Shown one piece after another: positions 1,691 to 19,811 of a DNA stretch of 64,000 nt; the first letter of the stretch is position 1; the number at the start of each line of letters is the position of its first letter. A program made the position numbers and the translations under genes. The notes under the pieces were generated by a model. The model saw only the letters and a program-made list of their open reading frames with translations. It ran no database searches and was not told the origin of the DNA. This stretch comes from Acidobacteriota bacterium (GTDB taxonomy: Bacteria; Acidobacteriota; Vicinamibacteria; Vicinamibacterales; UBA2999): positions 1 to 64,000 of the forward strand of contig JAUYQQ010000004.1 of the NCBI GenBank assembly GCA_030697165.1. Direction: 5' to 3'.

Positions 1691-1894
1691 GTGGCCGAGC
1701 GTAAACCGTTCCTGCTCCGCGTCGACCCCGCCCTGCTCGAGGCGCTTCAGCGCTGGGCGAACGACGATCTGCGCAGCCTCAACGGGCAGATCGAGTTCGT
1801 GCTGCGCAAGGCGGTCCAGCAGGCGGGCCGCACGAAGGAGGACCGGGGGCCTACTCCGGAGGCGCGCCGTCGATCGCCTTCCGAAGGGTCGTGA
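1691..1894 (+). CDS. Arc-type ribbon-helix-helix DNA-binding protein, possibly with an aberrant C terminus
   Basis: Starting at the GTG at 1691, five bases after the SPFH stop, the product has 67 residues. Residues 4-40 (KPFLLRVDPALLEALQRW and the following SLNGQIEFVLRKAV) match the ribbon-helix-helix domain of Arc-like proteins, so a DNA-binding role is likely. From about residue 52 on, the sequence is Arg/Ser/Pro-rich and is encoded antisense to the last codons of the neighbouring kinase. The natural C terminus may therefore have been replaced at a junction near 1845-1851. No toxin partner is visible, so a toxin-antitoxin role is not supported. Confidence 0.7.
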   Translation: MAERKPFLLRVDPALLEALQRWANDDLRSLNGQIEFVLRKAVQQAGRTKEDRGPTPEARRRSPSEGS

Positions 1895-4241
1895 GCAGCA
1901 CGCGGGCCGTGTAGGGCTTGGGCACGAACTCGGCGACGCCGGCGCCGAGTGCCCGGCTGATGCCGAGATGCGACGTCAACCCGCTCGAGCCGATGATCTT
2001 GACCGCGGGGTTGATCGCCCTGAGCGCCACGATCAGCGCCGGGCCGTCCATGATCGGCATGGCCATGTCGGTCAATACCACCGCGACGTCCGTGTGCTGG
2101 CGGGCATAGACGGCGACGGCCTCCGCGCCATTGGCGGCCAACACCACCCGGTAGCCATACCGCTCGAGCGTGCGCCGCGCGATCTCGCGCACGCCGTCTT
2201 CATCGTCCACCACCAGGACCAGCTCGCCGTGTCCGCGCGGCAGGCCACTCTGCACGACCGCGACATCTTCGGCCAGCTCCGCGGTCGTGTTGGCCGGGAG
2301 GTAGACCGTGAACCTCGTTCCCTTGCCCATTTCACTGTCGAGGCTGATGAACCCGCCGTGGCTTTTCACAATCGCCATGGTGGTCGACAGGCCGAGGCCG
2401 GTCCCCTTGCCGATCTCCTTGGTGGTGTAGAACGGCTCGAACACCCTGTCGCGGATCTCGGGCGGAATGCCGGTCCCGGTGTCGGCCACCTTGACCATGA
2501 CATAGGGCCCGGGATGCGCGTCCGGGTTCAGGGCGGTGTAGGTGTCATCGAGGACGACATTTTCCATCGCCAGCTGCAGGCGGCCGCCGTGGGGCATGGC
2601 GTCACGGGCGTTCACGCACAGGTTCATGACCACCTGGTGCAACTGGGTCGGATCGCCCAAGACGCTCCACAGGTCTGTCGCACTCTCCAGGTGGACGTCG
2701 ATGGATTTCGGAAACGTATCGCGCACCACGTTGAGCAGGTCCCGCATCAGGTGGGTCATCGTCACGGTGACGCGCTGGCCCTCGACCCCGCGGGCGAAGG
2801 ACAGCACCTGCTTCACCAGGTCAGCGCCCCGCTTGGCACTCGTTTCGAGCGTCGCCAGCATCGCCTGGGCTTCGCTGCCGGGGTTGTTCTCCTTCAACAG
2901 CTCGAGCCCCATCAGAATCGGCGCCAGCACGTTGTTGAGGTCGTGGGCAATCCCTCCGGAGAGGGTGCCAATGCTCTCCATGCGCTGGGTTCGGAGAAAC
3001 TGCTTCTCAAGCTTCTTCCGCTCGGTCAAGTCGGTGATGAATGCCACCCCCTGATCGGGCGCGTCATCGACCCTCGCCCCGGCAATCAGGATAGGGACTC
3101 TGCGGCCGTCCTTGCCGAGGAACTCTTTTTCATAGGGCGCGCAGAGCCCGTTGGCGGCCACTTCCGCGACCGCCCGAAAGTCGAGCTCGGCATACTCGGG
3201 TGGCGTGATGTCGACCCACGACAGCCCACCGGCATCGAGATCGGCGCGCGTGAACCCCAGCATGGCCAGCAGGGCGTCGTTGGCGTCGACGATGGCTCCG
3301 GAGGCGTGCCAGAACAAGACGCCCTGGGCGTTGGATTCGATCAGCCGTCGGAATCGGCTCTCGCTGGCCACCAGCTGCGCTTGTGCCCGCTTGGCCTCGG
3401 TAATGTCCCGGGCGATCGTGGACACGCCAATCACGTTTCCGTGCGAGTCCTTGATGGGCGACAGCGTGATGGAGACGTCGATCAACCGCCCGTCCTTGGT
3501 CAGGCGCTTGGTGTCAAGGTGATGGACCAGCTCGCCGCGTCGGATCCGGTCGAACGAAGCTACCTCTTCGTCGATGGCGGCAGCCGGAACCAGTGGGTCG
3601 ATGGACCGGCCGACCATTTCCGCCGCGGTGTAGCCGTAAATCCGCTCCGCGCCCCGGTTCCAGCTGGTGATGGTGCCGTGCAGGTCCCGTCCCAGGATCG
3701 CGTCGTCTGACGACTCGACGATCGCGGCGAGGCGCGCCAACGCCGCTTCGGCCTGCTTGCGCTCGCTGATCTCGATGGACACGCCGACAATGCCGGCCAG
3801 CTCGCCGTGGTCGTCAAAAATGTGGGTATTGGTGATCTCGACCGGGAACTCACGGCCGGCGCGGTTGCGGACCACGAACTCGCCGTGCCACGGCTGACCG
3901 CGCCGCAACTGCGACATGATGGCTTCGGCCTGCGCCTGCGTCGCTTGCGTGACGGTCACGTCCATGATCGACTTCCCCACCATCTCGCTGGGGGGCCAGC
4001 CATACAACTCACCGGCGTGGCGGTTTGCGAAAATGATGGTGCCGGCCAGGTCGGTCGTGATCACCGCTTGTGCGATCTGATCCAGCAGGTGCGCATGGAG
4101 TTGCCGCCGCGGGGCCCTTTGCCGCAAATCCGCCCCACCACCGGCGTCGGGCGGAGGGGGCGCCTGTGTCACAGCGACATGATGGGACCAGTGCCCCGAG
4201 ATATCAAGGGCCATCGGCGCCCGACCGCCGACTTTCTCCAT
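1851..4241 (-). CDS. Hybrid sensor histidine kinase, three PAS domains, HisKA, HATPase and receiver
   Basis: The reading frame extends upstream to 4349 into the previous kinase gene, but the ATG at 4241 avoids that overlap and gives 796 residues. There is no transmembrane segment, so it is cytoplasmic. Three PAS domains cover about residues 45-410. HisKA follows with GGIAHDLNNVLAPI (phospho-accepting His in the H-box), then the HATPase domain with DTGTGIP and GKGTGLGLST. The C-terminal receiver has VVDDEDGV, the phospho-Asp in LTDMAMPIMDG and a Lys in VPKPYTA. It is the last gene of the kaiC-kaiB-kinase-kinase operon and a close paralogue of the kinase before it. The expected role is output of, or input to, the Kai proteins. 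The signal sensed is unknown. Confidence 0.9.
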   Translation of the reverse strand: MEKVGGRAPMALDISGHWSHHVAVTQAPPPPDAGGGADLRQRAPRRQLHAHLLDQIAQAVITTDLAGTIIFANRHAGELYGWPPSEMVGKSIMDVTVTQATQAQAEAIMSQLRRGQPWHGEFVVRNRAGREFPVEITNTHIFDDHGELAGIVGVSIEISERKQAEAALARLAAIVESSDDAILGRDLHGTITSWNRGAERIYGYTAAEMVGRSIDPLVPAAAIDEEVASFDRIRRGELVHHLDTKRLTKDGRLIDVSITLSPIKDSHGNVIGVSTIARDITEAKRAQAQLVASESRFRRLIESNAQGVLFWHASGAIVDANDALLAMLGFTRADLDAGGLSWVDITPPEYAELDFRAVAEVAANGLCAPYEKEFLGKDGRRVPILIAGARVDDAPDQGVAFITDLTERKKLEKQFLRTQRMESIGTLSGGIAHDLNNVLAPILMGLELLKENNPGSEAQAMLATLETSAKRGADLVKQVLSFARGVEGQRVTVTMTHLMRDLLNVVRDTFPKSIDVHLESATDLWSVLGDPTQLHQVVMNLCVNARDAMPHGGRLQLAMENVVLDDTYTALNPDAHPGPYVMVKVADTGTGIPPEIRDRVFEPFYTTKEIGKGTGLGLSTTMAIVKSHGGFISLDSEMGKGTRFTVYLPANTTAELAEDVAVVQSGLPRGHGELVLVVDDEDGVREIARRTLERYGYRVVLAANGAEAVAVYARQHTDVAVVLTDMAMPIMDGPALIVALRAINPAVKIIGSSGLTSHLGISRALGAGVAEFVPKPYTARVLLTTLRKAIDGAPPE

Positions 4242-4299
4242 TGGTGGTCTTGATGGCTGTTCGCCCGGTATTCGCACGCCGTCCCGTGCCCGGCGTGCG

Positions 4300-7200
4300 T
4301 CAGTGCCGGTGCGGAGACTGCGCCGGCCCTTCGCCAGCGATGGCGGCACGCAGGGTGGTCAGCAGGACGCGGGCGGTGTAGGGCTTGGGCACGAACTGGG
4401 CGACGCCGGCGCCAAGGGCCCGCGCGATGCCGTGATTCGACGTCAACCCGCTCGAGCCGATGATGGTGACCGCGGGGTTCATCGCTCTGAGCGCCACGAT
4501 CAGCGCCGGGCCATCCATGATCGGCATGGCCATGTCGGTCAGTACCACCGCGATGTCGGCCCCGTGCTGGGCATAGATGGCGACGGCCTCCGCGCCATTG
4601 GCGGCCAGCGCCACGCGGTACCCATACCGCTCGAGCGTGCGCCGCGCAATCTCGCGCACACCGTCTTCATCGTCCACCACCAGCACCAGTTCGCCGTGTC
4701 CACGCGGCAGGCCACTCTGCGCGATCGCGACATTGTCGGCCAGCGCCGCGGTCGTGTTGGCCGGCAAGTAGACCTTGAACTTCGTGCCCTTGCCCATTTC
4801 GCTGTAGAGGTTGATGAACCCGCCGTGGCTCTTCACGATCGCCATGGTCGTCGACAGGCCGAGGCCGGTCCCCTTGCCGAGCTCCTTGGTCGTGAAGAAC
4901 GGCTCGAAGATCTGCTCGCGCAAGGCGGACGGGATACCGGTGCCCGAGTCGGCAACCGTCACCACGACGAAGGCACCGGCTTGCGCGTCGGGATTCAAGG
5001 CCGTGTAGATGTCGTCGAGAACGACGTTCTCCATGCTGAGCTGCAGGCGGCCCCCGTGCGGCATGGCATCGCGGGCGTTGACGCACAGGTTGAGGAACAC
5101 CTGGTGCAGTTGAGTGGGATCACCGGTCACGCTCCATAAATCGTGCGCGCTCTCCAGGTGCACGTCGATCGACTTCGGGAAGGTGTCGCGCATCACCTTC
5201 ACCAGGTCCCGCATCAGGTGCGAGAATGCGACCGAAACTCGGTCGCCGGTCACGCCACGCGCAAATGACAACACTTGCTTGACCAGGTCCGCGCCCCGGA
5301 CGGCGCTGATTTGCAGGGTATTGAGAATTTCGGTGTTCTCGGTGCTGGGGTTGATCTCCTTGAGCAGTTCCACCGACATCAGGATCGGCGCCAGCACATT
5401 ATTCAGGTCGTGGGCGATGCCACCGGCCAGCGTCCCGAGGCTTTCCATGCGCTGCGCGCGCATGAACTGCTGCTCCAGCTTCTTGCGCTCGGTCAGGTCA
5501 ACGACGAACGCGACGCCTTCGTCGGGCTGGTCCTCAAACCTCGCCGCACCGATCAGAACCGGCACACGGCTGCCGTCTCTTCGCATGTACTCCTTCTCGT
5601 ACGGCTTCACCACACCGTGGGCCGCCAACTCGCCCAGGGCCTGCTGGTCCAGTGGGCCGTACTGCGGCGGCGTCAGTTCCGTCCACTTGAGCGTACCGGC
5701 CGCCAACTCTTCGCGCGTGTAACCCAGCAACTGCAACAACGCATCGTTGGCGTCGGTAATGGCGCCCGAGAATGTAAAAAAGAGCACGCCCTGCGCGTTG
5801 GATTCAACCAGCCGCCTGAACCGCCGCTCGGTCGCCAGTCGCCGTGCTTCTTCGGCGTTGCGTTCGGTGATGTCGCGGGCAATCTTGGCCAGCCCGATCA
5901 CGGTCCCGGCCTCGTCCCTGATCGGCGACATCGTGATCGATACGTCGATCAACCGACCCTCCTTCGTCACGCGCCGGGTCTCGATGCGGCCGACGCTCTC
6001 GCCACGCAGAATCGGCTCGACCAGGGCGTCCTCGTCGTTGTCGGCGCCCTCGGGAATCAGGGGCTGAATCGACCGGCCCACCATCTCGGCTGCGGTGAAA
6101 CCGAAGACTCGCTCTGCGCCCCGATTCCAACTGGTGATCACACCGTCCAGGTCCTTGCCCATGATCGCGTCGTCTGATGATTCGACGATGGCGGCCAGGC
6201 GCGCCAGCGTCGCCTCGGCCTGCTTCCGCTCGCTGATGTCAATGGAGACGCCGATGATGCCGGCGGGCTGGCCGGTCTCGTCGAGAATGGGGGAAATGGT
6301 GCTCAGGACCGGGAACTCCCGGCCGTCTCGATGGCGGGCCATGAACTCGCCATGCCATGTTTGGCCGTGGCGCAACTGCTCCATGATGGCCTCAGCTGGC
6401 GACTTGCTTGCCTTAGGAATGGCCACGTCCATGATCGAACGTCCCAGCATTTCGCTTGGCGTCCAACCGTTCAGCTCACCGGAATAGCGGTTTGCGAAAG
6501 TGATGGTGCCCTGCATGTCGGTAGTGATCACCGCCTGGCCGATCTGGTCCAGCATGTGGGCCTGGATGTGGAGAGCCTTCGAGGCCTGGCGGTGCTCGGT
6601 CTGGTCCAACACCTGTGAGATGAAGTGCACCGGCTCGCCGGCGTCATTGCGAACCAGCGACACACTGAGCAGCACCCAAACGTGTTCGCCGTCCTTCCGA
6701 ATGTAGCGCTTCTCTATCTGGTAGGCGTTGGTGACGCCGTCCATCAAGCGCTGCTCGTTGGCCTGGTCGGCCGCCAAATCCTCGGGGTGGGTAATCTCCT
6801 CGAAGCTCTTCCCGAGCAACTCGGCCGCGGCATAGCCCACAATGCCGCAGAACGCCCGGTTGGCGGCAAAGTAGCGGCCGTCGAGCGACACCAGCGCCAC
6901 GCCAATCGGTGCGAACTGAAAGGCCTTGGCGAACTGCTGCTCGCTCGCTCGGAGCGCCAACTCGGCAAGTTTCCGGGCCGTGATATCGACGTGCATGATG
7001 ACGGCGCCGCCCCCTGCGCCCGCGCGCAGGGGCGAGATCATGAGCCGGAACCAGCGCTGCTCCGTCGGCGAATGGCAGGGATATTCGAGGGTGAACATCG
7101 GCGCCTGGCCCGTCAACACACGCCGGATGCCCGCGGCCGCCTCCCGGGATTCCTCAGCACAATCGCCGCTGGCGTGCTCGCAGATGGCCAGGTAGTTCTG

Positions 7201-7536
7201 GCCCACGGCAAACTCGGGCGATTGCAACAGGTTGGCGGCGGCGAACCGGCGCCACGATTCGTTGACCGTGAGAATGACGCCGTTGGCATCGACGAGCGCC
7301 ACGTGCGCCGGCAGGGCATCCAGGATCGCGGTTTGGCTCGCGGCCAGTTGGCGCTGGGCCGCCTCGGTGGCGCGCAGTCGCTGCTGGGCCTCCTGCAGCA
7401 GGTACGCATCGTCACCACCACCCACCACGGCATCGAGCTGTCCGCCTGTAAGCGCCTGCAGTTCCTGCTCGGCCGCCCTGAGGGTTCGAACCAGCTCCGC
7501 GATGCGGGCGTCGGGGGCCGAAGGCCGGCGCGTCAT
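4300..7536 (-). CDS. Hybrid sensor histidine kinase, five PAS domains, HisKA, HATPase and receiver, KaiBC-linked
   Basis: The ATG at 7536 overlaps the kaiB stop as ATGA, which indicates translational coupling; an in-frame GTG at 7557 is a weaker alternative. The 1078-residue product starts with a short helical segment containing GGQLDAVVGG, a motif I associate with kinases encoded beside kaiBC genes. Five PAS domains follow (roughly 70-190, 195-315, 325-445, 445-570 and 575-695). HisKA (GGIAHDLNNVLAPI), HATPase (GTGIP, GKGTGLGLST) and a complete receiver (LTDMAMPIMDG) complete the protein. From the fourth PAS domain on it is very similar to the next kinase, even at DNA level. It is soluble and probably acts in a phosphorelay with the Kai proteins. 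Confidence 0.9.
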   Translation of the reverse strand: MTRRPSAPDARIAELVRTLRAAEQELQALTGGQLDAVVGGGDDAYLLQEAQQRLRATEAAQRQLAASQTAILDALPAHVALVDANGVILTVNESWRRFAAANLLQSPEFAVGQNYLAICEHASGDCAEESREAAAGIRRVLTGQAPMFTLEYPCHSPTEQRWFRLMISPLRAGAGGGAVIMHVDITARKLAELALRASEQQFAKAFQFAPIGVALVSLDGRYFAANRAFCGIVGYAAAELLGKSFEEITHPEDLAADQANEQRLMDGVTNAYQIEKRYIRKDGEHVWVLLSVSLVRNDAGEPVHFISQVLDQTEHRQASKALHIQAHMLDQIGQAVITTDMQGTITFANRYSGELNGWTPSEMLGRSIMDVAIPKASKSPAEAIMEQLRHGQTWHGEFMARHRDGREFPVLSTISPILDETGQPAGIIGVSIDISERKQAEATLARLAAIVESSDDAIMGKDLDGVITSWNRGAERVFGFTAAEMVGRSIQPLIPEGADNDEDALVEPILRGESVGRIETRRVTKEGRLIDVSITMSPIRDEAGTVIGLAKIARDITERNAEEARRLATERRFRRLVESNAQGVLFFTFSGAITDANDALLQLLGYTREELAAGTLKWTELTPPQYGPLDQQALGELAAHGVVKPYEKEYMRRDGSRVPVLIGAARFEDQPDEGVAFVVDLTERKKLEQQFMRAQRMESLGTLAGGIAHDLNNVLAPILMSVELLKEINPSTENTEILNTLQISAVRGADLVKQVLSFARGVTGDRVSVAFSHLMRDLVKVMRDTFPKSIDVHLESAHDLWSVTGDPTQLHQVFLNLCVNARDAMPHGGRLQLSMENVVLDDIYTALNPDAQAGAFVVVTVADSGTGIPSALREQIFEPFFTTKELGKGTGLGLSTTMAIVKSHGGFINLYSEMGKGTKFKVYLPANTTAALADNVAIAQSGLPRGHGELVLVVDDEDGVREIARRTLERYGYRVALAANGAEAVAIYAQHGADIAVVLTDMAMPIMDGPALIVALRAMNPAVTIIGSSGLTSNHGIARALGAGVAQFVPKPYTARVLLTTLRAAIAGEGPAQSPHRH

Positions 7537-7820
7537 CGGGACACGGTCAGTCCGCACGCCTGCAGCACTGTCGCCTCCTGGCTCAAATTACCAATCACCC
7601 GGCGGACCGGCCGGGGCGACAGCTTGACCAGCGTCGGCGTCAGCATCACCTGGTCCTCGAGTGCCCGGTCCGGATGGAGAAGCAGGTCGATGATCTCAAT
7701 CTGGTGACGCTTGGCGAGATGGGCCTGGCACAGAGCCTTCAAATTGGCCACCGCCAGAGACGAATTGGGGCCGTCACCGGTCACGTAGAGACGGAACCGG
7801 ACGATCGGCGCCGCCTTCAC
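7533..7820 (-). CDS. kaiB: KaiB-family circadian clock-like protein
   Basis: The 95-residue thioredoxin-like protein starts at a GTG that overlaps the kaiC stop (GTGA). KaiB hallmarks are present: RFRLYVTGDGPNS at the first strand, IEIIDLLLHP, MLTPTLVKL with the conserved TPTL turn, and the RRVIGNLS segment. In cyanobacteria KaiB binds the KaiC CI ring after a fold switch and recruits output kinases. Here it sits between kaiC and two hybrid kinases, with no kaiA, the usual arrangement in non-cyanobacterial Kai systems. Whether it fold-switches cannot be told from sequence alone. Confidence 0.92.
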   Translation of the reverse strand: MKAAPIVRFRLYVTGDGPNSSLAVANLKALCQAHLAKRHQIEIIDLLLHPDRALEDQVMLTPTLVKLSPRPVRRVIGNLSQEATVLQACGLTVSR

Positions 7821-9535
7821 GATCGCGCCTTCTTTTTTCGAGCGGGAGTCGCGTCAGCCCGGCGCAGGTTCCGCAACGAGGCTTTGCCGGAGCGCCTGAC
7901 GGTCTCGAGGTCCGCCGTCACCTCGCCCAAGGAGGCACGCTCGCCACGCGTCGCATCGAGCGCCTGCTCCAGCGCGTCTTTCTGCGCCGACAGTCGCGCG
8001 GTACGCTTGTCGAGCTCCGACAGGCGACGGCGCGATTCGGCCGCCTGCCGTTGCCGGTCGGCCATCGCAGCCTGCTCCTTTTCCCAACGTAGGGCGCCCA
8101 TCAGGACGGCGCCGCCCTCCGTGTAGACGTCGGTCAGCGTGAGACCTGCGCCGCTCAGCACCAGTTCGCGCACCTGGTTGGAATGCGCCGTGCCCCGCGA
8201 CTTGACGATCGTCAGCGCGCGATTGCGCTCGCCGCCGTGAACCAGGTAATTCAGATGGATCCAGGTGTCGGCGATGGTTGAAATCTGGATTGGACTCCGC
8301 TCGGCATCGGGGAGCAGGCCGTCCAGCAGGCTGCTGCACAGCAGCGTAATGCCCTCGTGCTTGGCCCAGTCGGTCAACCGTTCGATCACCCCGTTCGCCG
8401 TCAGCTGGTTGCCCTGTCTTGACACCGCCGACAACGGGTCGATCACGAGGCAGCGGGCGCGCTGCTCGAGCGCCATCTGCTTGATGTGACTGAAGTGCAC
8501 CTCGGCACTGCTGGCGCCGGCCCGGGCCGACGTCAGGCGCAGCAGCCCCCGCCGCCGATAGCGCTCCAGGCGGATGTTGACCGACGTCAGGTTGCGAACG
8601 ATCTCACCGGTGTCCGAGTCGAAGCTGACGAACAACGCGCGCTCGCCCCGCTGGCACGCCGCCTCCACGAAGGCACCGCACAGGGTGGTCTTCGCCGTCC
8701 CCGGCGCGCCGGTGATCAGGATGCTGGCGCCGCGGTAATAGCCGCCCCCGAGCATGGTGTCGAGGCGCGCGACCCCCGACGACACCCGCTCGGTGACCAC
8801 GGGCAGGTAGCCGTCGGCCAGCCGGCGCAGGCCGGCCACCTCCACGCCGTGCGAGGTAATGACCAACGGCGAGCGGTTCTCCGCAAACTCCGACCCGCGA
8901 TACTTGAGAATGCGCAGTCCACGCTGCGACACGCCCTCGACCTCGTGGTGGGACAGGGCGATTGCGCAGTCGACCATGAACTGCAGCTGACTGCCCGGCG
9001 CGGGCGCCCCGCCGACGACGGCCTTCGCCGTGATGATGGCGGTCAGGCCCCGGTCCAACAGCCATTCGTGGAGGCGGTAGATTTCGCGGCGCTCGGCCTC
9101 GGGATCGTTGAGCAGCGTCAGGACGACGTCGAGGGCATCGAACACGATCCGCTTCGCGCGAATCTGCCGGGCCTTGGCGTCGATCGCCGCCAGCATGCCG
9201 CCGAGATCGAAGGCGCCGGCCTGCACCAGGTCGGGCGTGGGCTTGGCGTCGAGAAAGAACAACTTCTTGCGTTGCAGGGAATCGAGGTTCCACCCGAAGG
9301 TGGCGGCGTTGGCCTTGATCCGCGACGCGCTCTCCTCGAACGCCACGAAGATGCCGGGCTCGTCGTACTGCTGGGCGCCATTGACCAGCGACTGCAGGGC
9401 CAGCAACGTCTTGCCGGCGCCCGGCCCGCCTTCGACCAGGGTGACGCGCCCGGTTGGTAACCCGCCACCGGTCATCGAATCGAGCCCGCCAATGCCGGTC
9501 AGAGACTTCGCCAACGAACGGGCGCCTAAGCTCAT
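7817..9535 (-). CDS. kaiC: KaiC-family double-domain ATPase with C-terminal coiled coil
   Basis: The 572-residue product has two RecA-like domains. CI (about 10-240) has Walker A GGPGAGKT (36-43), the catalytic pair E67-E68 in FVAFEESAS and Walker B Asp133. CII (about 248-475) has Walker A GAPGTAKT (276-283) and Walker B Asp366, but at the catalytic Glu position it reads SFDSD (D306-S307). The phosphorylation segment SPIQISTIADT keeps the adjacent Ser419-Thr420, equivalent to S431/T432 of Synechococcus KaiC, with Ser414 at the T426 position. Residues about 482-550 are a charged predicted coiled coil, longer than in cyanobacterial KaiC. It is first in the operon. It should hydrolyse ATP at CI and bind KaiB; rhythmicity is not implied. 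Confidence 0.93.
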   Translation of the reverse strand: MSLGARSLAKSLTGIGGLDSMTGGGLPTGRVTLVEGGPGAGKTLLALQSLVNGAQQYDEPGIFVAFEESASRIKANAATFGWNLDSLQRKKLFFLDAKPTPDLVQAGAFDLGGMLAAIDAKARQIRAKRIVFDALDVVLTLLNDPEAERREIYRLHEWLLDRGLTAIITAKAVVGGAPAPGSQLQFMVDCAIALSHHEVEGVSQRGLRILKYRGSEFAENRSPLVITSHGVEVAGLRRLADGYLPVVTERVSSGVARLDTMLGGGYYRGASILITGAPGTAKTTLCGAFVEAACQRGERALFVSFDSDTGEIVRNLTSVNIRLERYRRRGLLRLTSARAGASSAEVHFSHIKQMALEQRARCLVIDPLSAVSRQGNQLTANGVIERLTDWAKHEGITLLCSSLLDGLLPDAERSPIQISTIADTWIHLNYLVHGGERNRALTIVKSRGTAHSNQVRELVLSGAGLTLTDVYTEGGAVLMGALRWEKEQAAMADRQRQAAESRRRLSELDKRTARLSAQKDALEQALDATRGERASLGEVTADLETVRRSGKASLRNLRRADATPARKKKARS

Positions 9536-9752
9536 GTGGCATCATTATGGTTCTATCCGTAAGCTGCAAGAGTCCGCACGCAATCATTCGGTGAGCCAAT
9601 CCCGCCAGTAGATCCGTGTTTACCGCCGCTCGCCTGCCGACGTCGAACTGGTCGCCTGCCAGACGACGTCATAGGTAATGTCAAGTGACGAAGACATTGA
9701 TCTTCGCCTTTTGTTCGCATACCATGGCTGGTTTCCAGGGGAATCTGATCCT

Positions 9753-10973
9753 GTGACTGATTCAATCAACGACCTGTCCGCCCTCCGCATTGAGCGCGAG
9801 CCGCTGAACACCAGCGGCGGCCGCTCGGTGAAGTGGGTGATCCTGCTGCTGGTACTGGGCGGCGCCGGTGGCGGCGCCTGGTACTGGCTGGATCGCGAGC
9901 GCCCGATCGAAGTCGAGGTCGTGGCGGTCACCGAACGTGCCGCCGGCACCCAGGCCTCGGTGCTGAACGCTTCTGGCTACGTCACGGCGCGACGCCGGGC
10001 CACCGTCTCGTCCAAGGTCACCGGCAAAGTGATCGAGGTGAACGTCGAGGAGGGCATGGCCGTGCGCGAAGGCCAGGTGCTGGCGCGACTGGACGACTCG
10101 TCTCTGCAGGCGGGCATGGTCCTGGCCCGCGCGCAGTTGGAGGCCGCCCGGCAGGCCATCCCCGAAAGCGAGGTCCGCCTGACAGAAGCGCGCCTCAACC
10201 TGCAGCGGCAACAGCGGCTGATGAAGGACGGCCTGACCACGCCGTCGGCGATTGATCAGGCCGAGGCCGAGGTCAACTCGCTCGTCGCGCGCATCAGTTC
10301 GTTGCGCGAGCAGATTAACGTGGCGCAGAGCCAGGTGGCGCTGCAGCAGACGGCCATCGACGACATGGTGATTCGCGCGCCGTTTAGCGGCGTGGCGCTC
10401 TCCAAGGACGCGCAGCCCGGAGAAATGGTGTCGCCGGTCTCGGCCGGCGGCGGCTTCACCCGCACCGGCATCAGCACCATCGTGGACATGCGTTCGCTCG
10501 AGATCGAGGTGGACGTGAACGAAAGCTACATCAACCGCGTCAGTGCCGGCCAACCGGTCACGGCGGTGCTCGACGCGTATCCCGACTTCCAGATTCCGGC
10601 CAAGGTGATTGCGGTGGTGCCGACGGCGGATCGGCAGAAGGCCACGGTGCTGGTGCGCATCGGGTTCAACCAGCTCGACCCGCGGATCCTGCCCGACATG
10701 GGCGTGAAGGTCACGTTCCTGCGCGAGGCCGATGCCGCCGCGCCGGTGGCGCAGCAGGCGGTGACGCTGGTGCCCAAGGGCGCGGTGAAGTCCGACGGCG
10801 CCAATAGCTACGTGTTCCTCGTCACCGAAGACACCGTCGAGCGCCGCGCGATCAAGACCGGCGGCACCGACGGCGACCGGCTCGAAGTGACGGCCGGCTT
10901 GAAGGGCGGCGACCGCGTGGTCGTCGCGCCGCCCCCCGAACTCGCCGCGGGCGTGAAGATCATCGTCAAATGA
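9753..10973 (+). CDS. HlyD/MacA-type periplasmic adaptor (membrane fusion protein)
   Basis: The GTG at 9753 is preferred because AGGGGAA lies nine bases upstream; a longer frame begins at 9678. The 406-residue protein has one N-terminal membrane anchor (about residues 24-42) and a lipoyl/barrel-sandwich half (SGYVTARRRATVSSKVTG). An alpha-helical hairpin of about 100 residues rich in Ala, Glu and Gln follows, then the returning lipoyl half with IRAPFSGVALSKDAQPGE and a beta-barrel/membrane-proximal region. It should link an inner-membrane ABC transporter to the outer membrane in a MacAB-like efflux or lipid-export complex. The ATPase and two permeases follow on the same strand. Confidence 0.88.
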   Translation: MTDSINDLSALRIEREPLNTSGGRSVKWVILLLVLGGAGGGAWYWLDRERPIEVEVVAVTERAAGTQASVLNASGYVTARRRATVSSKVTGKVIEVNVEEGMAVREGQVLARLDDSSLQAGMVLARAQLEAARQAIPESEVRLTEARLNLQRQQRLMKDGLTTPSAIDQAEAEVNSLVARISSLREQINVAQSQVALQQTAIDDMVIRAPFSGVALSKDAQPGEMVSPVSAGGGFTRTGISTIVDMRSLEIEVDVNESYINRVSAGQPVTAVLDAYPDFQIPAKVIAVVPTADRQKATVLVRIGFNQLDPRILPDMGVKVTFLREADAAAPVAQQAVTLVPKGAVKSDGANSYVFLVTEDTVERRAIKTGGTDGDRLEVTAGLKGGDRVVVAPPPELAAGVKIIVK

Positions 10974-10992
10974 TGCCGGAAGGCGTGCCAGA

Positions 10993-11014
10993 GGCCGGCA
11001 CTTTAGTGCCGGCC
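10993..11014. repeat. REP-like perfect hairpin (10-bp arms, TT loop)
   Basis: Arms GGCCGGCACT and AGTGCCGGCC enclose TT. The hairpin lies in the gap between the adaptor gene and the ABC ATPase gene and shares its CT-NN-AG centre with the hairpins at 14061, 14099, 52589 and 56541. It may stabilise or attenuate the mRNA between the two genes. Confidence 0.7.
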
Positions 11015-11031
11015 GGCAATAGGAGTCAGAC

Positions 11032-11718
11032 ATGGAAGCACTCGTCAAAGTCAACGGCGTCCACAAGTACTTCACCCGCGGCAGCGAGCGCATCGACGTG
11101 CTCCAGGGCGTGAATCTCGAGATCCCCCGGGGCGACTTCCTCGCGCTGATGGGACCGTCCGGGTCGGGCAAGACGTCGTTGCTCAACCTGATGGGCGGGC
11201 TCGACCAGCCGTCGGCCGGCACCATTGAAGTCGGCGGCACGAACATCGCCGCGCTCTCGGGCGGAATGCTCTCGAAGTGGCGGGCCAACAACATCGGCTT
11301 CGTCTTCCAGCTCTACAACCTGCTGCCGGTGTTGACCGCCGAGCGCAACGTTGACCTGCCGTTGCTCTTGACCAAGCTGTCGAAGGCCGAGCGCAAGAAG
11401 CGCGTCGAGATTGCGCTGAAGGTGGTCGGCCTGGCCGATCGCGCCAAGCACTACCCGCGCCAGTTGTCGGGCGGCCAGGAGCAGCGCGTCGGCATTGCCC
11501 GCGCGATTGTGACCGACCCGACGCTGCTGCTGGCCGACGAGCCGACCGGCGACCTCGATCGCAAGGCCGGCGATGAAATTCTCGACCTGCTGCAGGCCCT
11601 CAACCGCGACCACGGCAAGACCATCGTCATGGTGACGCACGATCCGCGCGCGGCCGAGCGCGCCAAGCGCACGCTGCACCTCGAGAAGGGCGTGCTGCTG
11701 GAGGGAGTGCACGCATGA
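11032..11718 (+). CDS. ABC transporter ATP-binding protein (MacB/LolD type)
   Basis: This 228-residue ATPase has Walker A GPSGSGKTS, a Q-loop region NIGFVFQLYNLLP, the signature LSGGQEQR and Walker B LLADEPTGDLD, followed by the switch His in MVTHDP. The GQEQR signature replaces the more common GQQQR. An AGGAG ribosome-binding site precedes the ATG. Its stop overlaps the next start as ATGA. It should energise the two FtsX-like permeases that follow and work with the upstream adaptor in export across the envelope. The substrate (macrolide, lipid, lipoprotein or peptide) is not predictable. Confidence 0.92.
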   Translation: MEALVKVNGVHKYFTRGSERIDVLQGVNLEIPRGDFLALMGPSGSGKTSLLNLMGGLDQPSAGTIEVGGTNIAALSGGMLSKWRANNIGFVFQLYNLLPVLTAERNVDLPLLLTKLSKAERKKRVEIALKVVGLADRAKHYPRQLSGGQEQRVGIARAIVTDPTLLLADEPTGDLDRKAGDEILDLLQALNRDHGKTIVMVTHDPRAAERAKRTLHLEKGVLLEGVHA

Positions 11719-12863
11719 AGTTCCTCCCCTTGCTCTGGAGCAGCCTGTGGCGCAAGAAGATCCGCACCATCTTCACGCTGCTCTCGGTGTTCGTCGCGTT
11801 CCTGCTGTTCGGGCTGCTGATGACCATTCGCGGCGCCTTCTCGTTCGGCATCGACATTGCCGGCCTCGACCGGTTGATCCTGATCCACAAGGTCAGCCTG
11901 ATCATGCCGCTGCCGGTGTCGTACTTGCCGCGCCTGAACAGCACCGAAGGCGTCGCGCTGGCCACGCACAACACGTGGTTTGGCGGCGTCTACCAGGATC
12001 CGTCGAACTTCTTCGCGCAGATCGCGGTGGAGCCGGAGCCGTTCATGAAGCTGTATCCGGAGTACCAGGTATCGCCGGAACACATGCAGGCGTGGCTGGC
12101 CGACCGCCAGGGCGTGATGGTGGGCGTTGACCTGGCTAACCGCTTCGGGTGGAAGGTCGGCGACCGCATCCCGATTGTCGGCACCATCTGGCAGCCCAAG
12201 CAGGGCCAGGTGTGGGAGTTCAACATCGCCGGCCTCTACGACGGCGAGCCGGGCATCGACAAGACCCAGTTCTTCTTCCGCTACGACTATCTCGACGAGA
12301 ACCGCGCCGGTGGCGCGGGCGCGGTCGGCTGGTACATCGTCAAGATCAACGATGCCGGCGCGGCCCAGCAGATGAGCGCGAAGTTCGACGAGATGTTCGC
12401 CAACTCGTCGGCCGAAACCAAGACCACCACCGAGAAGGGGTTCGTCGAGGGCTTCGCCAAGCAGATGGGCGACATCGGCGCCATCATGATCGCCATCACC
12501 ATCGCGGTGCTGTTCACGATGATCCTGGTCGCCGCCAACACCATGGCGCAGTCGGTGCGCGAACGCACCAGCGAGGTCGGCGTGCTGAAGACACTGGGGT
12601 TCTCCAACCTCTCGATTCTCGCGCTGGTGTTGAGTGAATCGGTGCTGATCGCGGTGATCGGCGGCGGCCTGGGCCTCGCCGCGGCGTGGGCGTTCGTGCA
12701 GCAGGGTGATCCCACCGGCGGCATGCTGCCCATCTTCGTGCTGCCGACACGCGACGTCGCGCTCGGCGGCGCGTTGGTTCTCGGCCTCGGCCTGCTTGCC
12801 GGGATGCTGCCGGCCCTGAACGCGATGAACCTGAACATTACCGATGCCCTGAGGAGAGCCTAA
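11715..12863 (+). CDS. ABC transporter permease, FtsX/MacB-like (first of two)
   Basis: This 382-residue membrane protein begins in an ATGA overlap with the ATPase gene. It has one N-terminal transmembrane segment (about 15-38), a periplasmic domain of about 220 residues, and three C-terminal segments including AIMIAITIAVLFTMILVAAN and the FtsX motif region RERTSEVGVLKTLGFSN. The coupling-helix motif with Glu-Val-Gly-Val-Leu-Lys-Thr-Leu-Gly is clear. With the following paralogue it probably forms a heterodimeric permease, whereas MacB itself is a homodimer with fused ATPase. Confidence 0.9.
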   Translation: MKFLPLLWSSLWRKKIRTIFTLLSVFVAFLLFGLLMTIRGAFSFGIDIAGLDRLILIHKVSLIMPLPVSYLPRLNSTEGVALATHNTWFGGVYQDPSNFFAQIAVEPEPFMKLYPEYQVSPEHMQAWLADRQGVMVGVDLANRFGWKVGDRIPIVGTIWQPKQGQVWEFNIAGLYDGEPGIDKTQFFFRYDYLDENRAGGAGAVGWYIVKINDAGAAQQMSAKFDEMFANSSAETKTTTEKGFVEGFAKQMGDIGAIMIAITIAVLFTMILVAANTMAQSVRERTSEVGVLKTLGFSNLSILALVLSESVLIAVIGGGLGLAAAWAFVQQGDPTGGMLPIFVLPTRDVALGGALVLGLGLLAGMLPALNAMNLNITDALRRA

Positions 12864-14054
12864 GTGTTCAACTGGATCGGACAGACCCTTGCGGTCACCG
12901 CGCTCAACCTCCGCACCATTCCCCAGCGCCTGGGCTCGTCGGGCGTCGCCATTGTCGGCATTGCCGGCGTGGTGATAGTACTGGTGTCGGTGCTCTCCAT
13001 TGCCGCCGGCTTCTCGGCGGCCATGCAAGGCTCCGGGTCGCCGTCGCGCGCCCTCGTGATGCGCAGCGGCGCCGACAGCGAGATGACCAGCGGCCTCGGC
13101 GGCGCCGAGGTCGACGTCATCAAGCAGGCGCCCGGCCTGCGCCGCGACGGCCAGACCGCGGTCGCCTCGGCCGAGCTCTACGTAATCATCGACATCCCCA
13201 AGATCTCCACGAATACCTCGGCCAACGTGCCCATGCGCGGGGTGCAGGAGATGGCGCTGGCGGTGCGTAACGAAGCCTCGATCGTCGAGGGGCGGATGTT
13301 CCAGTTCGGCACCAACGAGATCGTCGTCGGCCGTGGCGCGAGCGGGCAGTTTGCCGGCCTCACCGTCGGCAACGAGTTCAAGTCGGGCCAGGACACCTGG
13401 AAGGTCGTCGGCATTTTCGAGGCCGACGGCGGCGTCAGCGAAACCGAGATCTGGTGCGATGCCCGCGTGCTGCAGGGCGCCTACCGCCGCGGCAACAGCT
13501 ACCAGTCGCTGCTGGCGCAACTGGACTCGAGCGACAGCTTCGACACGTTTCGCGACTGGCTGACCGCCAACCCGCAGGTCAACGTGCAGGTGCGACGCGA
13601 GGCCGATTACTACGCGCAGCAGTCACGGGCGCTCAGCGGCCTGATCCAGGGCGTCGGCTTCGCCATTGCTGCGCTGATGGGCATTGGCGCGGTGTTCGGC
13701 GCCATCCTGACGATGTACACGGCGGTGTCGACGCGGTCGCGTGAGATCGCGACGCTGCGCGCGCTTGGCTTCAACACCACGTCGGTGGTGGTGTCGGTGC
13801 TGGCCGAATCGCTGGCGCTCGCCGCCATTGGCGGCGTGATCGGCGGCATCACGGCGTACCTGGCGTTCAACGGCTACCAGACCTCGACCATGAACTTCTC
13901 CACCTTCAGCCAGGTGGCGTTCGCGTTCCAGGTCACGCCGCAGTTGCTGGTGATGGGGTTGATCTACGCGCTGGTGATGGGACTGGTCGGCGGGCTGTTC
14001 CCGGCGGTGCGGGCGGCACGGTTGCCGATTCCGACGGCGCTGCGCGAGTTGTGA
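12864..14054 (+). CDS. ABC transporter permease, FtsX/MacB-like (second of two)
   Basis: The GTG at 12864 directly follows the TAA of the previous gene, with GAGGAGAG as ribosome-binding site. The product has 396 residues. It has an N-terminal membrane segment (IVGIAGVVIVLVSVLSIAAG), a MacB-type periplasmic domain, and three C-terminal segments with the motif RSREIATLRALGFN. It pairs with the upstream permease and completes the four-gene export operon. A row of hairpins ends the operon at 14061-14118. Confidence 0.9.
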   Translation: MFNWIGQTLAVTALNLRTIPQRLGSSGVAIVGIAGVVIVLVSVLSIAAGFSAAMQGSGSPSRALVMRSGADSEMTSGLGGAEVDVIKQAPGLRRDGQTAVASAELYVIIDIPKISTNTSANVPMRGVQEMALAVRNEASIVEGRMFQFGTNEIVVGRGASGQFAGLTVGNEFKSGQDTWKVVGIFEADGGVSETEIWCDARVLQGAYRRGNSYQSLLAQLDSSDSFDTFRDWLTANPQVNVQVRREADYYAQQSRALSGLIQGVGFAIAALMGIGAVFGAILTMYTAVSTRSREIATLRALGFNTTSVVVSVLAESLALAAIGGVIGGITAYLAFNGYQTSTMNFSTFSQVAFAFQVTPQLLVMGLIYALVMGLVGGLFPAVRAARLPIPTALREL

Positions 14055-14060
14055 GCGTCA

Positions 14061-14118
14061 GCGACGGCTGAAGCCGTCGCTCTCCGGTCGTCCGGAGGGC
14101 GATGGCTTCAGCCATCGC
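14061..14118. terminator. Three consecutive hairpins between convergent genes
   Basis: GCGACGGCT-GA-AGCCGTCGC (14061-14080), CTCCGG-TCGT-CCGGAG (14082-14097) and GCGATGGCT-TC-AGCCATCGC (14099-14118) follow each other directly. The last overlaps the stop codon of the convergent kinase gene. They lack a U-run, so they look like REP-type elements serving as a bidirectional transcription end rather than a classical intrinsic terminator. Confidence 0.6.
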
Positions 14119-16009
14119 CGATTCCTCCCGCGTCAAGCACCTCGCGGATTTTCTTCCTGAGACCCGCGACCGTGTACGGCTTGGCGATGAAGTTCCGGGC
14201 GCGCGCGAGCGCCACCTGACCCATCGTCGCGTCATCGGTGTAGCCCGAGGCGAACAACACCTTGATGCCGGGACGGGCGGCGGCGATGGCCGTGACGAGG
14301 TCAACGCCGCTCATGTCCGGCATGACGACGTCCGTGAACACCAGGTGCACCTGGTCCTGGGGGCTTTCCAGCAGGGCCAGCGCCTGCTTCGCGCCGTTCG
14401 CGGCAATCACCGTAAAGCCGGCGCCTCTCAACATCCGCGTGACGACCTGCCGGAGACCGTCTTCGTCTTCCACCACCAGGATGGTTTCGGTGCCGCGGGC
14501 CGGCTGTGGCACCGCCGGCGCGACGTCAGGGGCGCCGTGAGCCGCGGTCGGCAGGAAGACCCGGAACGAGGCGCCCTTACCTGGTTCGCTTTCGACCACG
14601 ATCCAGCCGCCGGCCTGCTTCACGATGCCATCAACCGTGGCGAGGCCGAGGCCCGTGCCGCGGCCGAGTTCCTTGGTCGTAAAGAACGGGTCGAACATCT
14701 GCCGGCGGACCTCGGCGGTCATGCCGACACCGGTGTCGGTGACGCTGACCATCACGTGCGCACCAGCCACCGCAGGAGGGTGCGCGGCCGCAAACCCGGC
14801 GTCCACGTTGACATTGCTGGTTTCGACAGTGAGCACGCCGCCTTGCGGCATGGCATCACGGGCATTCACCGCGAGATTGAGCAGCACCTGCTCGAACTGG
14901 CCGGGATCGATGAGGACCGGGTCCACCTTCGCCGGTCCAACCACGGTCAGCTCGATGTCCTCGCCAATGAGCCGGCGCAGCATGCCCGCCATGTGATTGA
15001 CGTTGTCGCTGAGGTTCACGACGACCGGGTTGACGATTTGCTTGCGGCTGAACGACAGCAGTTGCCGCGTGAGCCGGGCGGCCAGGTCGCCCGCGTCTTT
15101 GATGTGCGCAAACTCCTGGCGCAGCGGGTGGTCGTCGGGCAGGTCCATGAGCGCGAGGTCGGCCGTGCCGTTGATCACGGTCAGCAGGTTGTTGAAGTCG
15201 TGCGCCACGCCGCCGGCCAGCCGCCCGACCACTTCCATTTTCTGCGCGTGGAGGAACTGCGCCTGCAAGCGCCTCCGCTCGGTCAGGTCACGCTTGATCG
15301 CAATGAAGTTCGTGATCTCGCCGGCACCGTTTTTGACCGGTGTGATGGTCTGTCCTTCGACATACTGGGTGCCGTCCTTGCGGCGGTTCGTCAGCTCCCC
15401 CTCCCAGGCCTTCCCCGCGAGGAGCGTCAGCCACATGTGCTGGTAGAACTCGCGCGGGTGCACACCCGACCGCAGCAGGTCGCGTGGGTTCTTGCCGATC
15501 GCTTCACTCGCGCTGTACCCGGACATCTGCAAGAACGCGGGATTCACCCACTGAAGGACGCCGTTCCGATCGGTGATGACGATGGCATTGGCGGCGGCGT
15601 CGAGCGCGGCGCTCTGCAGCCGGACCTGGCTCGCCAGGCCATGGTTGTACATCGCGATCTCGATGGTGGTGCGGAGGGCGACGGGCTCGAACGGCTTGAC
15701 CAGATAGCCGGCCGGCTCCGCGAGCGCGGCGCGGGCGATGACGTCCTCGGTGGTGTAGGCGGTGAGAAAGATGATCGGGATGATGGTGCGGGCCCTCATG
15801 GCCAGCGCCGCCTCAATCCCGTCCATCCCGGCTGACAAGTGGATGTCCATCAGGACCAGCTGCGGCTGCAGCGCCGCGGCGAGCGCCACGGCTTCCTCGC
15901 CCGAGGTGGCCATGCCAACCGGCCGATGACCAAGCGCGACCAGTTGCCGCTCGATGTCCCTGGCAATGATCAGCTCGTCTTCGACGATCAGGGTTTCAAT
16001 TCCCGTCAT
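14108..16009 (-). CDS. Receiver-PAS-histidine kinase-receiver hybrid protein
   Basis: This 633-residue soluble protein starts with a receiver (IVEDELIIARDI, phospho-Asp in LVLMDIHLSAGMDG, Lys in LVKPFEP). One PAS domain follows (about 135-250; ITDRNGVLQWVNPAF), then HisKA with LAGGVAHDFNNLLTV, HATPase (DTGVGM, GRGTGLGLAT) and a second receiver (VVEDEDGL, TDVVMPDMSG, FIAKPYT). Receivers at both ends fit an intermediate in a phosphorelay. The ATG overlaps the stop of the upstream membrane kinase as ATGA. It is the last gene of a three-gene signalling operon. Confidence 0.92.
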   Translation of the reverse strand: MTGIETLIVEDELIIARDIERQLVALGHRPVGMATSGEEAVALAAALQPQLVLMDIHLSAGMDGIEAALAMRARTIIPIIFLTAYTTEDVIARAALAEPAGYLVKPFEPVALRTTIEIAMYNHGLASQVRLQSAALDAAANAIVITDRNGVLQWVNPAFLQMSGYSASEAIGKNPRDLLRSGVHPREFYQHMWLTLLAGKAWEGELTNRRKDGTQYVEGQTITPVKNGAGEITNFIAIKRDLTERRRLQAQFLHAQKMEVVGRLAGGVAHDFNNLLTVINGTADLALMDLPDDHPLRQEFAHIKDAGDLAARLTRQLLSFSRKQIVNPVVVNLSDNVNHMAGMLRRLIGEDIELTVVGPAKVDPVLIDPGQFEQVLLNLAVNARDAMPQGGVLTVETSNVNVDAGFAAAHPPAVAGAHVMVSVTDTGVGMTAEVRRQMFDPFFTTKELGRGTGLGLATVDGIVKQAGGWIVVESEPGKGASFRVFLPTAAHGAPDVAPAVPQPARGTETILVVEDEDGLRQVVTRMLRGAGFTVIAANGAKQALALLESPQDQVHLVFTDVVMPDMSGVDLVTAIAAARPGIKVLFASGYTDDATMGQVALARARNFIAKPYTVAGLRKKIREVLDAGGIGDG

Positions 16010-18762: not shown

Positions 18763-19811
18763 GGCGTACTCGCTGGCTCACTTTGCGAGAAGGTTCGAGG
18801 CGTAAACACCAGGCTGACAGATTCGCCGGGGCCCGGTCCCGCTTCAAGGCTGCCGCCCAGTTGATGAGCGAGGTCGGCCACCAGTTGCAGCCCTACCGTC
18901 TGGGCACGCGGAGTGGCGAGGCCTGCTACCAAGCCAACCCCGTCGTCGCTCACCACCAGGCGGACCTGCGGTCCCTCGGGCTGCAGGGAGACACGCAATT
19001 CCCCGCTACGCTGACCTGGAAAGGCGTGCTTCAGGGCGTTGGTCACCAGTTCGTTTACCAGCAGGCCACAGGTGATGGCCTGCTGGGTGCTGACGACGAC
19101 GCTGGCCACATCAAGGCGCAACCGCACGCCGGCGTCGGCGACGGACAGCGAGCGGAACAGGTACTCGGCCACCTGCGAGAGGTGCGCCCCAAGGTCAACG
19201 TCGGTGACCCGGTTCGACTGGTAGAGCATCTCGTGCAACTGCGCGAGCAGGTGAATGCGGTTCTCCATGTCTTGGAGCACGGCGCGGGCCGCGACGTGAT
19301 CCACTTGATGGGCCTCGAGGCGCAACAGGCTGGTGATCAGCATCAGGTTGTTCTTGGCGCGGTGGTGGACTTCCCTCACCAGCGCATCTTTTTCGCGAAG
19401 GGCGGCGCGCAAGCTCTCTTGGGTGATTCGCAGGCGGAGCAAGGCATCAACGCGGGCCAGCAGTTCGGGCCCAGTCACCGGCCGGACGATATAACCGTCG
19501 GCCCGTCCTTCATCCAGGCCAATGACCTGGTCTTCCGGGGTGGTCTTCTGACCCGATGCCATCACCACCAGGACGCTCTCGAGGTCGGCATCGGCTTTGA
19601 TTTGCCTGGCGACCTCGACTCCGTTTCCGTCGGGGAGGTTGACGTCGAGCAGCAGCAGGGCGGGCCGATGCAGCCGGGTCAACCGCAGGGCCTCGGCCGC
19701 GCTGTGCCCCAGCATCACCGTGAATCCGGCACCGCGCAGGACCAAGGCGGTCGCGTCGGCCAGGTCGGGGTCGTCGTCTATGACGAGAATGGTCGTGTCC
19801 GAACGCGGCAT
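18759..19811 (-). CDS. Receiver domain fused to HisKA_2 histidine kinase
   Basis: This 350-residue protein has an N-terminal receiver (VIDDDPDL acidic pocket, phospho-Asp in LLLDVNLPDGNG). A short linker leads directly into HisKA_2 (LVREVHHRAKNNLMLITSLL) and HATPase (LVNELVTNALKHAF, DDGVGLV). The receiver-output arrangement, without PAS or membrane segments, suggests that the kinase activity itself is the regulated output. The kinase half resembles that of the next gene. It is first in the operon, so the divergent region 19812-20110 should hold its promoter. Confidence 0.9.
   Translation of the reverse strand: MPRSDTTILVIDDDPDLADATALVLRGAGFTVMLGHSAAEALRLTRLHRPALLLLDVNLPDGNGVEVARQIKADADLESVLVVMASGQKTTPEDQVIGLDEGRADGYIVRPVTGPELLARVDALLRLRITQESLRAALREKDALVREVHHRAKNNLMLITSLLRLEAHQVDHVAARAVLQDMENRIHLLAQLHEMLYQSNRVTDVDLGAHLSQVAEYLFRSLSVADAGVRLRLDVASVVVSTQQAITCGLLVNELVTNALKHAFPGQRSGELRVSLQPEGPQVRLVVSDDGVGLVAGLATPRAQTVGLQLVADLAHQLGGSLEAGPGPGESVSLVFTPRTFSQSEPASTP

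Follow-up and report, generated by a model that had tools for sequence, protein, structure and literature searches.

Gene Layout of the Locus

The window, by which we mean the whole stretch of 64,000 nucleotides analyzed here from an Acidobacteriota genome, carries a minus-strand run of four genes: kaiC (7817-9535), encoding a double-domain KaiC of 572 aa; kaiB (7533-7820), encoding 95 aa from a GTG start at 7820; and the genes of two hybrid kinases, named here HK1 (4300-7536), a hybrid histidine kinase of 1078 aa from an ATG at 7536, and HK2 (1851-4241). The kaiC stop and the kaiB start overlap as GTGA, the kaiB stop and the ATG of HK1 overlap as ATGA, and HK2 starts at an ATG 58 bases past the HK1 stop, its frame having an alternative GTG start at 4349, within HK1. 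Since the genes overlap, the run is presumably co-transcribed; a promoter scan 5' of kaiC found none. On inspection, none of the window's ORFs stood out as KaiA.

Both kinases share the order PAS, HisKA, HATPase_c, and REC with CckA-type hybrid kinases, and each of these domains was matched by Pfam in both proteins. Their best NCBIfam match is the CckA model, with 388 bits for HK1 and 387 for HK2, below its cut-off of 1000. HK2 has three PAS domains, all recognized by Pfam. HK1 begins with an N-terminal element of about 58 residues with a predicted helix-hairpin-helix fold (7339-7512, minus strand), followed by five PAS domains: four stretches were assigned as PAS by Pfam, and the fifth, first in order, is a PAS_7 at ORF residues 81-199 (34.9 bits for the whole protein, cut-off 27), the predicted model of which resembles solved PAS domains. 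Positions, overlaps, and Pfam domains agree with an earlier sequence-only reading of this DNA, which had described kaiC, kaiB, a five-PAS HK1, and a three-PAS HK2 in one minus-strand run.

HK2 as a Tandem Copy of HK1

Residues 323-1078 of the HK1 ORF align without gaps to residues 76-831 of the HK2 ORF, at 72% amino acid and 77.6% DNA identity, so that HK2 is a tandem copy of the last 756 residues of HK1. The two kinase cores are 79% identical and are mutually nearest in a kinase-core tree (98, starred; a quick tree with a long-branch warning), and the values of dS 0.73 and dN 0.19 indicate that the copy is old and still constrained. A profile search did not find the N-terminal element in HK2, and none of four close relatives (L082, L083, L095, and L034) has a tandem copy of the HK2 type. 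The sequence-only reading had KaiBC wired to both hybrid kinases and asked whether the four-gene order is conserved. Because HK2 is a tandem copy that lacks the element and is absent in the four relatives, the wiring holds, on sequence evidence, for HK1 only, which belongs to a conserved module and carries the element; conservation of the exact four-gene order is rejected, the second kinase being the tandem copy, and the order found in relatives is that of kaiC, kaiB, and an element-bearing gene.

Other arrangements are seen further downstream at some loci: at L230 (Hydrogenophilales, in the genome that also contains L113), kaiB is followed by two consecutive element-bearing genes, L088 and L093 have a kinase gene directly 3' of the element gene, and at L034 a receiver gene is followed, farther along, by another hybrid kinase.

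The Gene after kaiB in Relatives

The best 80 of the 315 relatives found for the window KaiC were surveyed as named loci. In 78 of the 80, kaiB follows kaiC, and in the remaining two kaiC runs up to the end of its contig. A downstream ORF after kaiB is present in 74 loci, leaving four without one by the criteria used, three of them near a contig end and one, L116, not. The element was found in 73 of these 74 ORFs, mostly at about residues 13-71, the sole exception being L125, where a different ORF comes next. Given these two counts, the first three genes of the run form a conserved module, and functional coupling of KaiBC with HK1 is likely from gene context.

The element-bearing third genes comprise 44 of the GGDEF/EAL type, 24 kinases, and 5 that are cut before classification, where the GGDEF/EAL label denotes a match to either domain (L113 and L151 match EAL and the kinase seed, with no GGDEF). 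Pfam found GGDEF and EAL domains in 18 of 19 scanned proteins, the remaining one, L090, being a hybrid kinase. As 30 of these elements had gone into the element profile A2, a cross-type test was run, in which a profile built from 15 kinase rows finds all 44 GGDEF/EAL-type proteins, and one built from the other 16 rows (13 of the GGDEF/EAL type, 2 cut, and the kinase L090) finds 24 of 26 kinases, L090 included, missing L160 and the window HK2 at E<1e-5. On the KaiC tree, the output changes between kinase and GGDEF/EAL at least eight times, three of them forced by starred branches; the label is nevertheless strongly clustered, with 8 changes versus 21.8 in shuffles (quick tree, long-branch warning). 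The kinase core of L034, a relative from the same family, groups with paralogues from the window's own genome and not with other Kai-linked cores.

These outputs also bear on the direction of signaling. The kinases might act as inputs, their PAS domains sensing the environment and setting KaiC while the output of KaiC-KaiB lies elsewhere, which would accord with a suggestion cited in PMC5520375, namely that KaiBC receives a redox signal from the kinase of the Rhodobacter operon. However, of the 68 loci with a classifiable third gene, 44 have a GGDEF or EAL match in it, and second-messenger enzymes have the shape of an output, so we consider this reading unlikely. The same count qualifies the earlier view of the kinases as the partners of KaiBC: it stands for HK1, but the module is not specific to kinases.

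A kaiC-kaiB pair followed by a kinase or a GGDEF/EAL protein is a context known from work of 2011 and 2016. The source PMC3164672, used below, is presumably De Luca et al. 2011.

Definition and Predicted Fold of the Element

An AlphaFold2 model of the 205 residues from the HK1 N-terminus (68 rows; pLDDT 94.7) places the element in a helix (residues 2-25), a hairpin (31-33/39-41), and a second helix (43-69) leading into PAS1. Residues conserved within the element include L, G, and D. Among the 50 Foldseek matches to the PDB listed for the HK1 N-terminus, most are PAS or sensor-kinase structures by title, and none carries a Kai label. Searches of PDB sequences with the element profiles gave nothing below E 0.05.

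Profile A2 was built from 30 of 72 extracted elements, picked for diversity, plus that of the window, with L149 (mis-cut) unused. A second profile, A3, represents another KaiBC type and holds 11 of the 13 elements found, L034 and L040 being left out, and A4 holds 68 of 71 possible rows, without L115, L126, and L140. A2 and A3 are related (hhalign probability 94). The E-values of the element searches refer to small sequence files, and the profiles are most sensitive to kaiBC operons, because the element was discovered by inspecting these operons.

Distribution of the Element across Genomes

All 84 candidates of the window's own genome were scored, and they contain one strong element match, HK1 (E 2.8e-20), the next being at E 0.026; 71 stretches in this genome match the kinase core, and only HK1 carries the element. 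It was also found in 20 of 20 genomes that contain named loci (19 of them with every candidate scored), with 22 matches at E<=2.7e-18, one each in 18 genomes and two each in G317 and G319. Since each of the 20 genomes holds its kaiB-linked gene, 20 of the 22 matches are taken as kaiB-linked. The second match in G317 belongs to a different kaiC-kaiB locus (L229), and that in G319 is the gene right after the kaiB-linked one (L230). A weaker match on contig C75 of G317 (E 1.4e-8) has no kaiB in the 10 kb of its locus that were compared.

Broader searches covered the phylum of the window and the order of G306 (Massilia), which we take to be Burkholderiales. The three phylum searches agreed in their genomes and totals and were treated as one draw, and likewise those of the order, with the best 21 or 25 first-look candidates per genome at most being scored. 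In the phylum, kaiB is present in 23 of 297 genomes, and the element (E<=1e-5, A2 or A3) in 18, all of them among the 23 (Fisher p 1e-24). With A2, four genomes were matched, all four directly after kaiB. A3 gave 25 matches, 17 at E<=2.7e-20 and 8 weaker. Fifteen of the strong ones lie directly after kaiB, one (L224) has a KaiC fragment nearby, where the contig ends, and one (L223) stands alone; among the weaker ones, two follow kaiB (G293 and G098), a third lies at a different place in G293, and the remaining five, at E 7e-5 to 1e-3, come from kaiB-negative genomes. In Massilia's order, kaiB is present in 12 of 250 genomes and the element in 10, all kaiB-positive (p 3e-16), with 10 of 10 strong matches directly downstream of kaiB; A2 contributed three strong matches and one weak one, the latter in a kaiB-negative genome, and A3 seven.

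Several kaiB-positive genomes are without a strong element match. Four of them, in the phylum and of the same taxonomic order as the window's genome (G116, G229, G245, and G261), have kaiC-kaiB-kaiB loci followed by a Crp/FNR-like gene instead, cNMP_binding being confirmed by Pfam for one; the others are G224 in the phylum and, in Massilia's order, G507 and G449, the last with a local match only (E 6.5e-4). Two kaiB genes after kaiC were seen at 16 of the 25 kaiB loci compared in the phylum.

Outside these draws, the element stands on the HWE kinase encoded in the Cereibacter sphaeroides kaiC-kaiB operon (52.8 bits; E 1.7e-17 against 12 sequences), and plasmid operons of Pararhizobium, Falsirhodobacter, and Sinorhizobium carry it too. 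Seven of 17 plasmid records with kaiB were compared. No element was seen at the loci of Aquisphaera (kaiB before kaiC) and Hymenobacter (no kaiC annotated), nor at that of Rhizobium sp. 11515TR (kaiB before kaiC), for which this covers the genes other than the one after kaiC. Searching plasmids by tblastn with single elements gave no match for one element and a single match for the other, in Pararhizobium, beside kaiB.

It could be argued that the element is a mere dimerization or signaling helix of PAS proteins, unrelated to Kai and inherited along with the operon. It is mostly helical in the AlphaFold2 model, with its long helix running into PAS1, and two element proteins, L223 and L225, have no kaiB nearby. 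Against this, the element is common to kinases and GGDEF/EAL proteins after kaiB, is confined to HK1 among the kinase-core stretches of the window's genome, and was not found at E<=1e-5 among the best 21 or 25 candidates, at most, scored in each of 274 and 238 kaiB-negative genomes. We therefore regard such an origin as improbable.

KaiB or KaiC as the Possible Docking Partner

The element is missing from five KaiC-kinase pairs that have no kaiB: those on contigs C9 of the window's genome and C22 of G167, and the upstream pairs of L117, L122, and L143, where the element-free pair stands beside a kaiC-kaiB-element set in the same locus. The second operon of the window's genome, kaiB-kaiC-hybrid kinase on contig C15, is also without the element.

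A SasA-like alternative is that the element docks on KaiC instead of KaiB and that KaiB competes with it, everything else being as in our preferred explanation. Docking through an N-terminal domain has its precedent in SasA (also PMC3164672), and kaiC is present at nearly every element locus with enough DNA, the exceptions being L223 and L225. The five element-free pairs speak against it, but their KaiCs are distant (23-32% identity), which weakens this evidence. Docking on KaiC is thus less probable in our view than docking on KaiB or on KaiB-KaiC, but it keeps some plausibility.

The KaiC and KaiB Proteins

The window KaiC scores 291 bits against Pfam KaiC and 474 bits against PRK09302, over its cut-off of 408, and stays under that of the circadian KaiC equivalog TIGR02655 (292.8 bits, cut-off 546.25). 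It has two RecA-like domains with Walker A lysines. The closest solved chain is 8dba (E 7.6e-100), the KaiA-less KaiC of Rhodobacter (Cereibacter) sphaeroides, which PMC10076222 describes as a dodecamer that a C-terminal coiled coil keeps together. The model of the window KaiC has a long C-terminal helix at residues 473-559, with moderate confidence (pLDDT 73, pTM 0.46). The window KaiB reaches 76.4 bits against Pfam KaiB (cut-off 27) and is under the cut-off of both NCBIfam KaiB equivalogs.

The catalytic EE of CI is present, but that of CII is absent: in the place of the Synechococcus KaiC pair E318-E319, the window KaiC has D306-S307 (codons at 8615-8620, minus strand). An S/T phosphosite pair, S419-T420 (codons at 8276-8281, minus strand), occupies the place of S431-T432. 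The clade of the window KaiC comprises 82 sequences, namely the window, L034, L040, and 79 of the 80 named loci. The first CII position is D in 81 of the 82 and S in one, and the second is S in 73, T in 5, E in 3, and A in 1. The CI EE is found in 82 of 82 and the first phosphosite is S in all, whereas the second is T in 60, A in 11, K in 5, S in 3, M in 2, and E in 1. Relatives had been found with the patterns [GS][IV]FVAFEE and T[IL][AV]DTWIH, so that the counts of the CI EE and of T at the second phosphosite are biased upward, both sites sitting in the search patterns, and that of the CII site, present in neither, is unbiased. A separate clade of 19 KaiCs of the phylum, clade B (98, starred), has the CII EE and S-S phosphosites in 19 of 19, the latter being the pattern given for cyanobacterial KaiC2 in PMC5520375. 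The C15 KaiC of the window's own genome also keeps the CII EE.

In Synechococcus KaiC, E318 is described as the catalytic base for phosphorylation and E319 as helping to hold Mg, and both E318A and E318D are arrhythmic, the lack of phosphoryl transfer being stated for E318A (PMC2777353). A circadian oscillator that sustains itself through KaiC phosphorylation would find its support in the S-T pair of the window KaiC, but it has against it the D-S at the CII pair, the arrhythmia of E318D, and the 19 of 82 clade members with A, K, M, or E at the second phosphosite, and we hold it to be very improbable. With Asp in place of the CII Glu in 81 of the 82, a replacement that makes Synechococcus arrhythmic, an ATP-state switch is by analogy the likelier of the two.

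Origin of the Operon

In the KaiC tree, the window KaiC groups with L082, from a Verrucomicrobiaceae MAG (99, starred; 68% identity over the compared part; quick tree), and the nearest Kai-linked kinase cores belong to MAGs labelled Bacteroidetes, Verrucomicrobiaceae, and Opitutaceae. Among nine genomes of the genus, the window's own included, only G167 besides the own genome matched the window KaiC along most of its length, at 27-29% identity, and none of the four other genomes of the genus within the 297-genome draw has kaiB. Horizontal transfer of the operon is likely, judging from these comparisons.

Comparison with Known Kai Systems

Operons in which kaiC and kaiB are followed by a kinase or a GGDEF/EAL protein are already known (PMC3164672, as kaiC context one; PMC4794148). 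Those of Rhodopseudomonas palustris and C. sphaeroides have the same order, kaiC-kaiB-PAS/HK (PMC4794148, PMC10076222), and their KaiCs have a long C-terminal extension as the window KaiC does, but they keep the CII EE and S-S phosphosites where the window KaiC has D-S and S-T. The C. sphaeroides kinase carries a related element, like HK1, yet it belongs to the HWE type and gave no receiver match at E<=1e-10, whereas HK1 is of the HisKA type with a REC; it is also the single kinase after kaiB, in contrast to HK1 followed by HK2. The structure of the C. sphaeroides KaiC-KaiB complex has been solved (PMC10076222).

In cyanobacteria, the kinase SasA is joined to the Kai ring by its N-terminal part, as we propose for HK1. 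SasA does so with an N-terminal KaiB-like domain, but a SasA-like KaiB-fold domain on HK1 or HK2 is rejected, as neither has a KaiB domain by Pfam at E<=0.001; the passage of PMC5520375 on SasA homologues outside cyanobacteria likewise gives them without one. The KaiC section of PMC3164672 reserves its N-terminal module, RtaNt, for kaiC-kinase pairs that lack kaiB and, unlike the present work, describes no shared element for kaiB-linked proteins. We found no description of such an element, nor of the clade-wide CII substitution, in the body text of the literature searched; as far as this search reached, these two are what is new here.

Proposed Mechanism

Our preferred explanation, to which we give a probability of roughly 60%, is that the operon encodes a putatively KaiA-less KaiC-KaiB switch with a dedicated output protein, the element of HK1 docking on KaiB or on KaiB-KaiC. 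By analogy with Cereibacter KaiBC, KaiC would hydrolyze ATP, and its nucleotide or phosphorylation state would decide the recruitment of KaiB to the CI ring. The element of HK1 would then dock on KaiB or the KaiB-KaiC complex and, through the continuous helix that links it to PAS1, docking would shift the kinase/phosphatase balance of HK1, the signal probably running from Kai to the kinase. HK1 would hand its phosphate via its own receiver to a partner elsewhere, and HK2 may either pair with HK1 or feed the same pathway without Kai control.

The element is read as a KaiB (or KaiB-KaiC) docking adaptor, a role suggested by its sequence context, because it is kept while the output switches between kinase and GGDEF/EAL, because it tracks kaiB and not kaiC, as seen in the five KaiC-kinase pairs, and because it occurs on the HWE kinase that the kaiC-kaiB operon of C. 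sphaeroides encodes. In a wider form, for which we see slightly less than an even chance, this unnamed helix-hairpin-helix module would be a general output adaptor of non-cyanobacterial KaiBC systems that reads KaiB-bound KaiC and can sit on either histidine kinases or c-di-GMP enzymes. In the clade of the window, it would read a KaiC whose CII Glu is replaced, and the replacement of these catalytic glutamates implies that the signal may rely more on nucleotide state and the binding of KaiB than on a cycle of phosphorylation.

Concluding Remarks

The clade-wide CII substitution provides natural KaiCs for separating ATPase-driven from phosphorylation-driven switching. According to a passage of PMC5520375, central output factors are missing in KaiBC systems outside cyanobacteria. 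Since it is carried, in several phyla, by the gene that directly follows kaiB, and is shared by output enzymes of two kinds, the element is a direct candidate for this missing output link, and it offers a testable and possibly general mechanism for how non-cyanobacterial KaiBC may signal.

Genes flanking the Kai operon

Divergent from kaiC, on the + strand (9678-14054), lie genes for a membrane-fusion-like protein, an ABC ATPase and two permease-like ORFs, as judged from their translations, which together have the look of a putative MacAB-type exporter. Beyond them, a further signalling cluster on the - strand (14108-19811) includes a 918-aa ORF flanked by two ORFs, each with receiver-like sequence at its start, the first of which (14108-16009) also contains a kinase core. 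On the other side of the operon, an SPFH/band-7-like protein with weak HflK/HflC matches is encoded on the + strand (792-1685), followed by a small ORF (1631-1894) for which no NCBIfam match was found.

Kai modules in other arrangements

The same genome harbours a second Kai operon (locus L033, C15:442400-462300; operon at 9569-17504 of the locus), comprising kaiB, KaiC and hybrid kinase genes. Here, kaiB is part of a 216-aa ORF, KaiC has the catalytic glutamate pair of the CII domain plus HISTITD, and the hybrid kinase, of 1914 aa, opens with a receiver-like domain. This kinase is devoid of the element, the predicted helix-hairpin-helix N-terminus typical of the first protein after kaiB.

The element is found in large PAS hybrid kinases of two other loci, L223 (6518-11770) and L225 (6443-9352), near which neither kaiB nor kaiC was matched in the 16 and 10 kb fetched, respectively; both genomes have kaiBC at other sites. 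In L057, a divergent kaiC-kaiB locus of the same phylum (genome G224), the start of the next gene looks element-like by eye, and a match to the element profile was not obtained.

In three relatives (L117, L122 and L143), the kaiC-kaiB-element set has a distantly related kaiC-kinase pair, itself lacking kaiB, either immediately upstream or a few kb away on that side, so that two Kai modules neighbour each other. The kaiB gene is also found on plasmids, with 17 records in PLSDB, nine of them from Cereibacter and others from Rhizobiaceae, Hymenobacter, Aquisphaera and Falsirhodobacter; kaiC adjoins it in six of the seven plasmid loci inspected (L286-L292).

Finally, four relatives from the same taxonomic order (L041, L045, L046 and L050) have the gene succession kaiC-kaiB-kaiB and encode next a Crp/FNR-like protein rather than a kinase, the cNMP_binding domain having been checked in L050 only. 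This gene may represent a direct transcriptional output of KaiBC.
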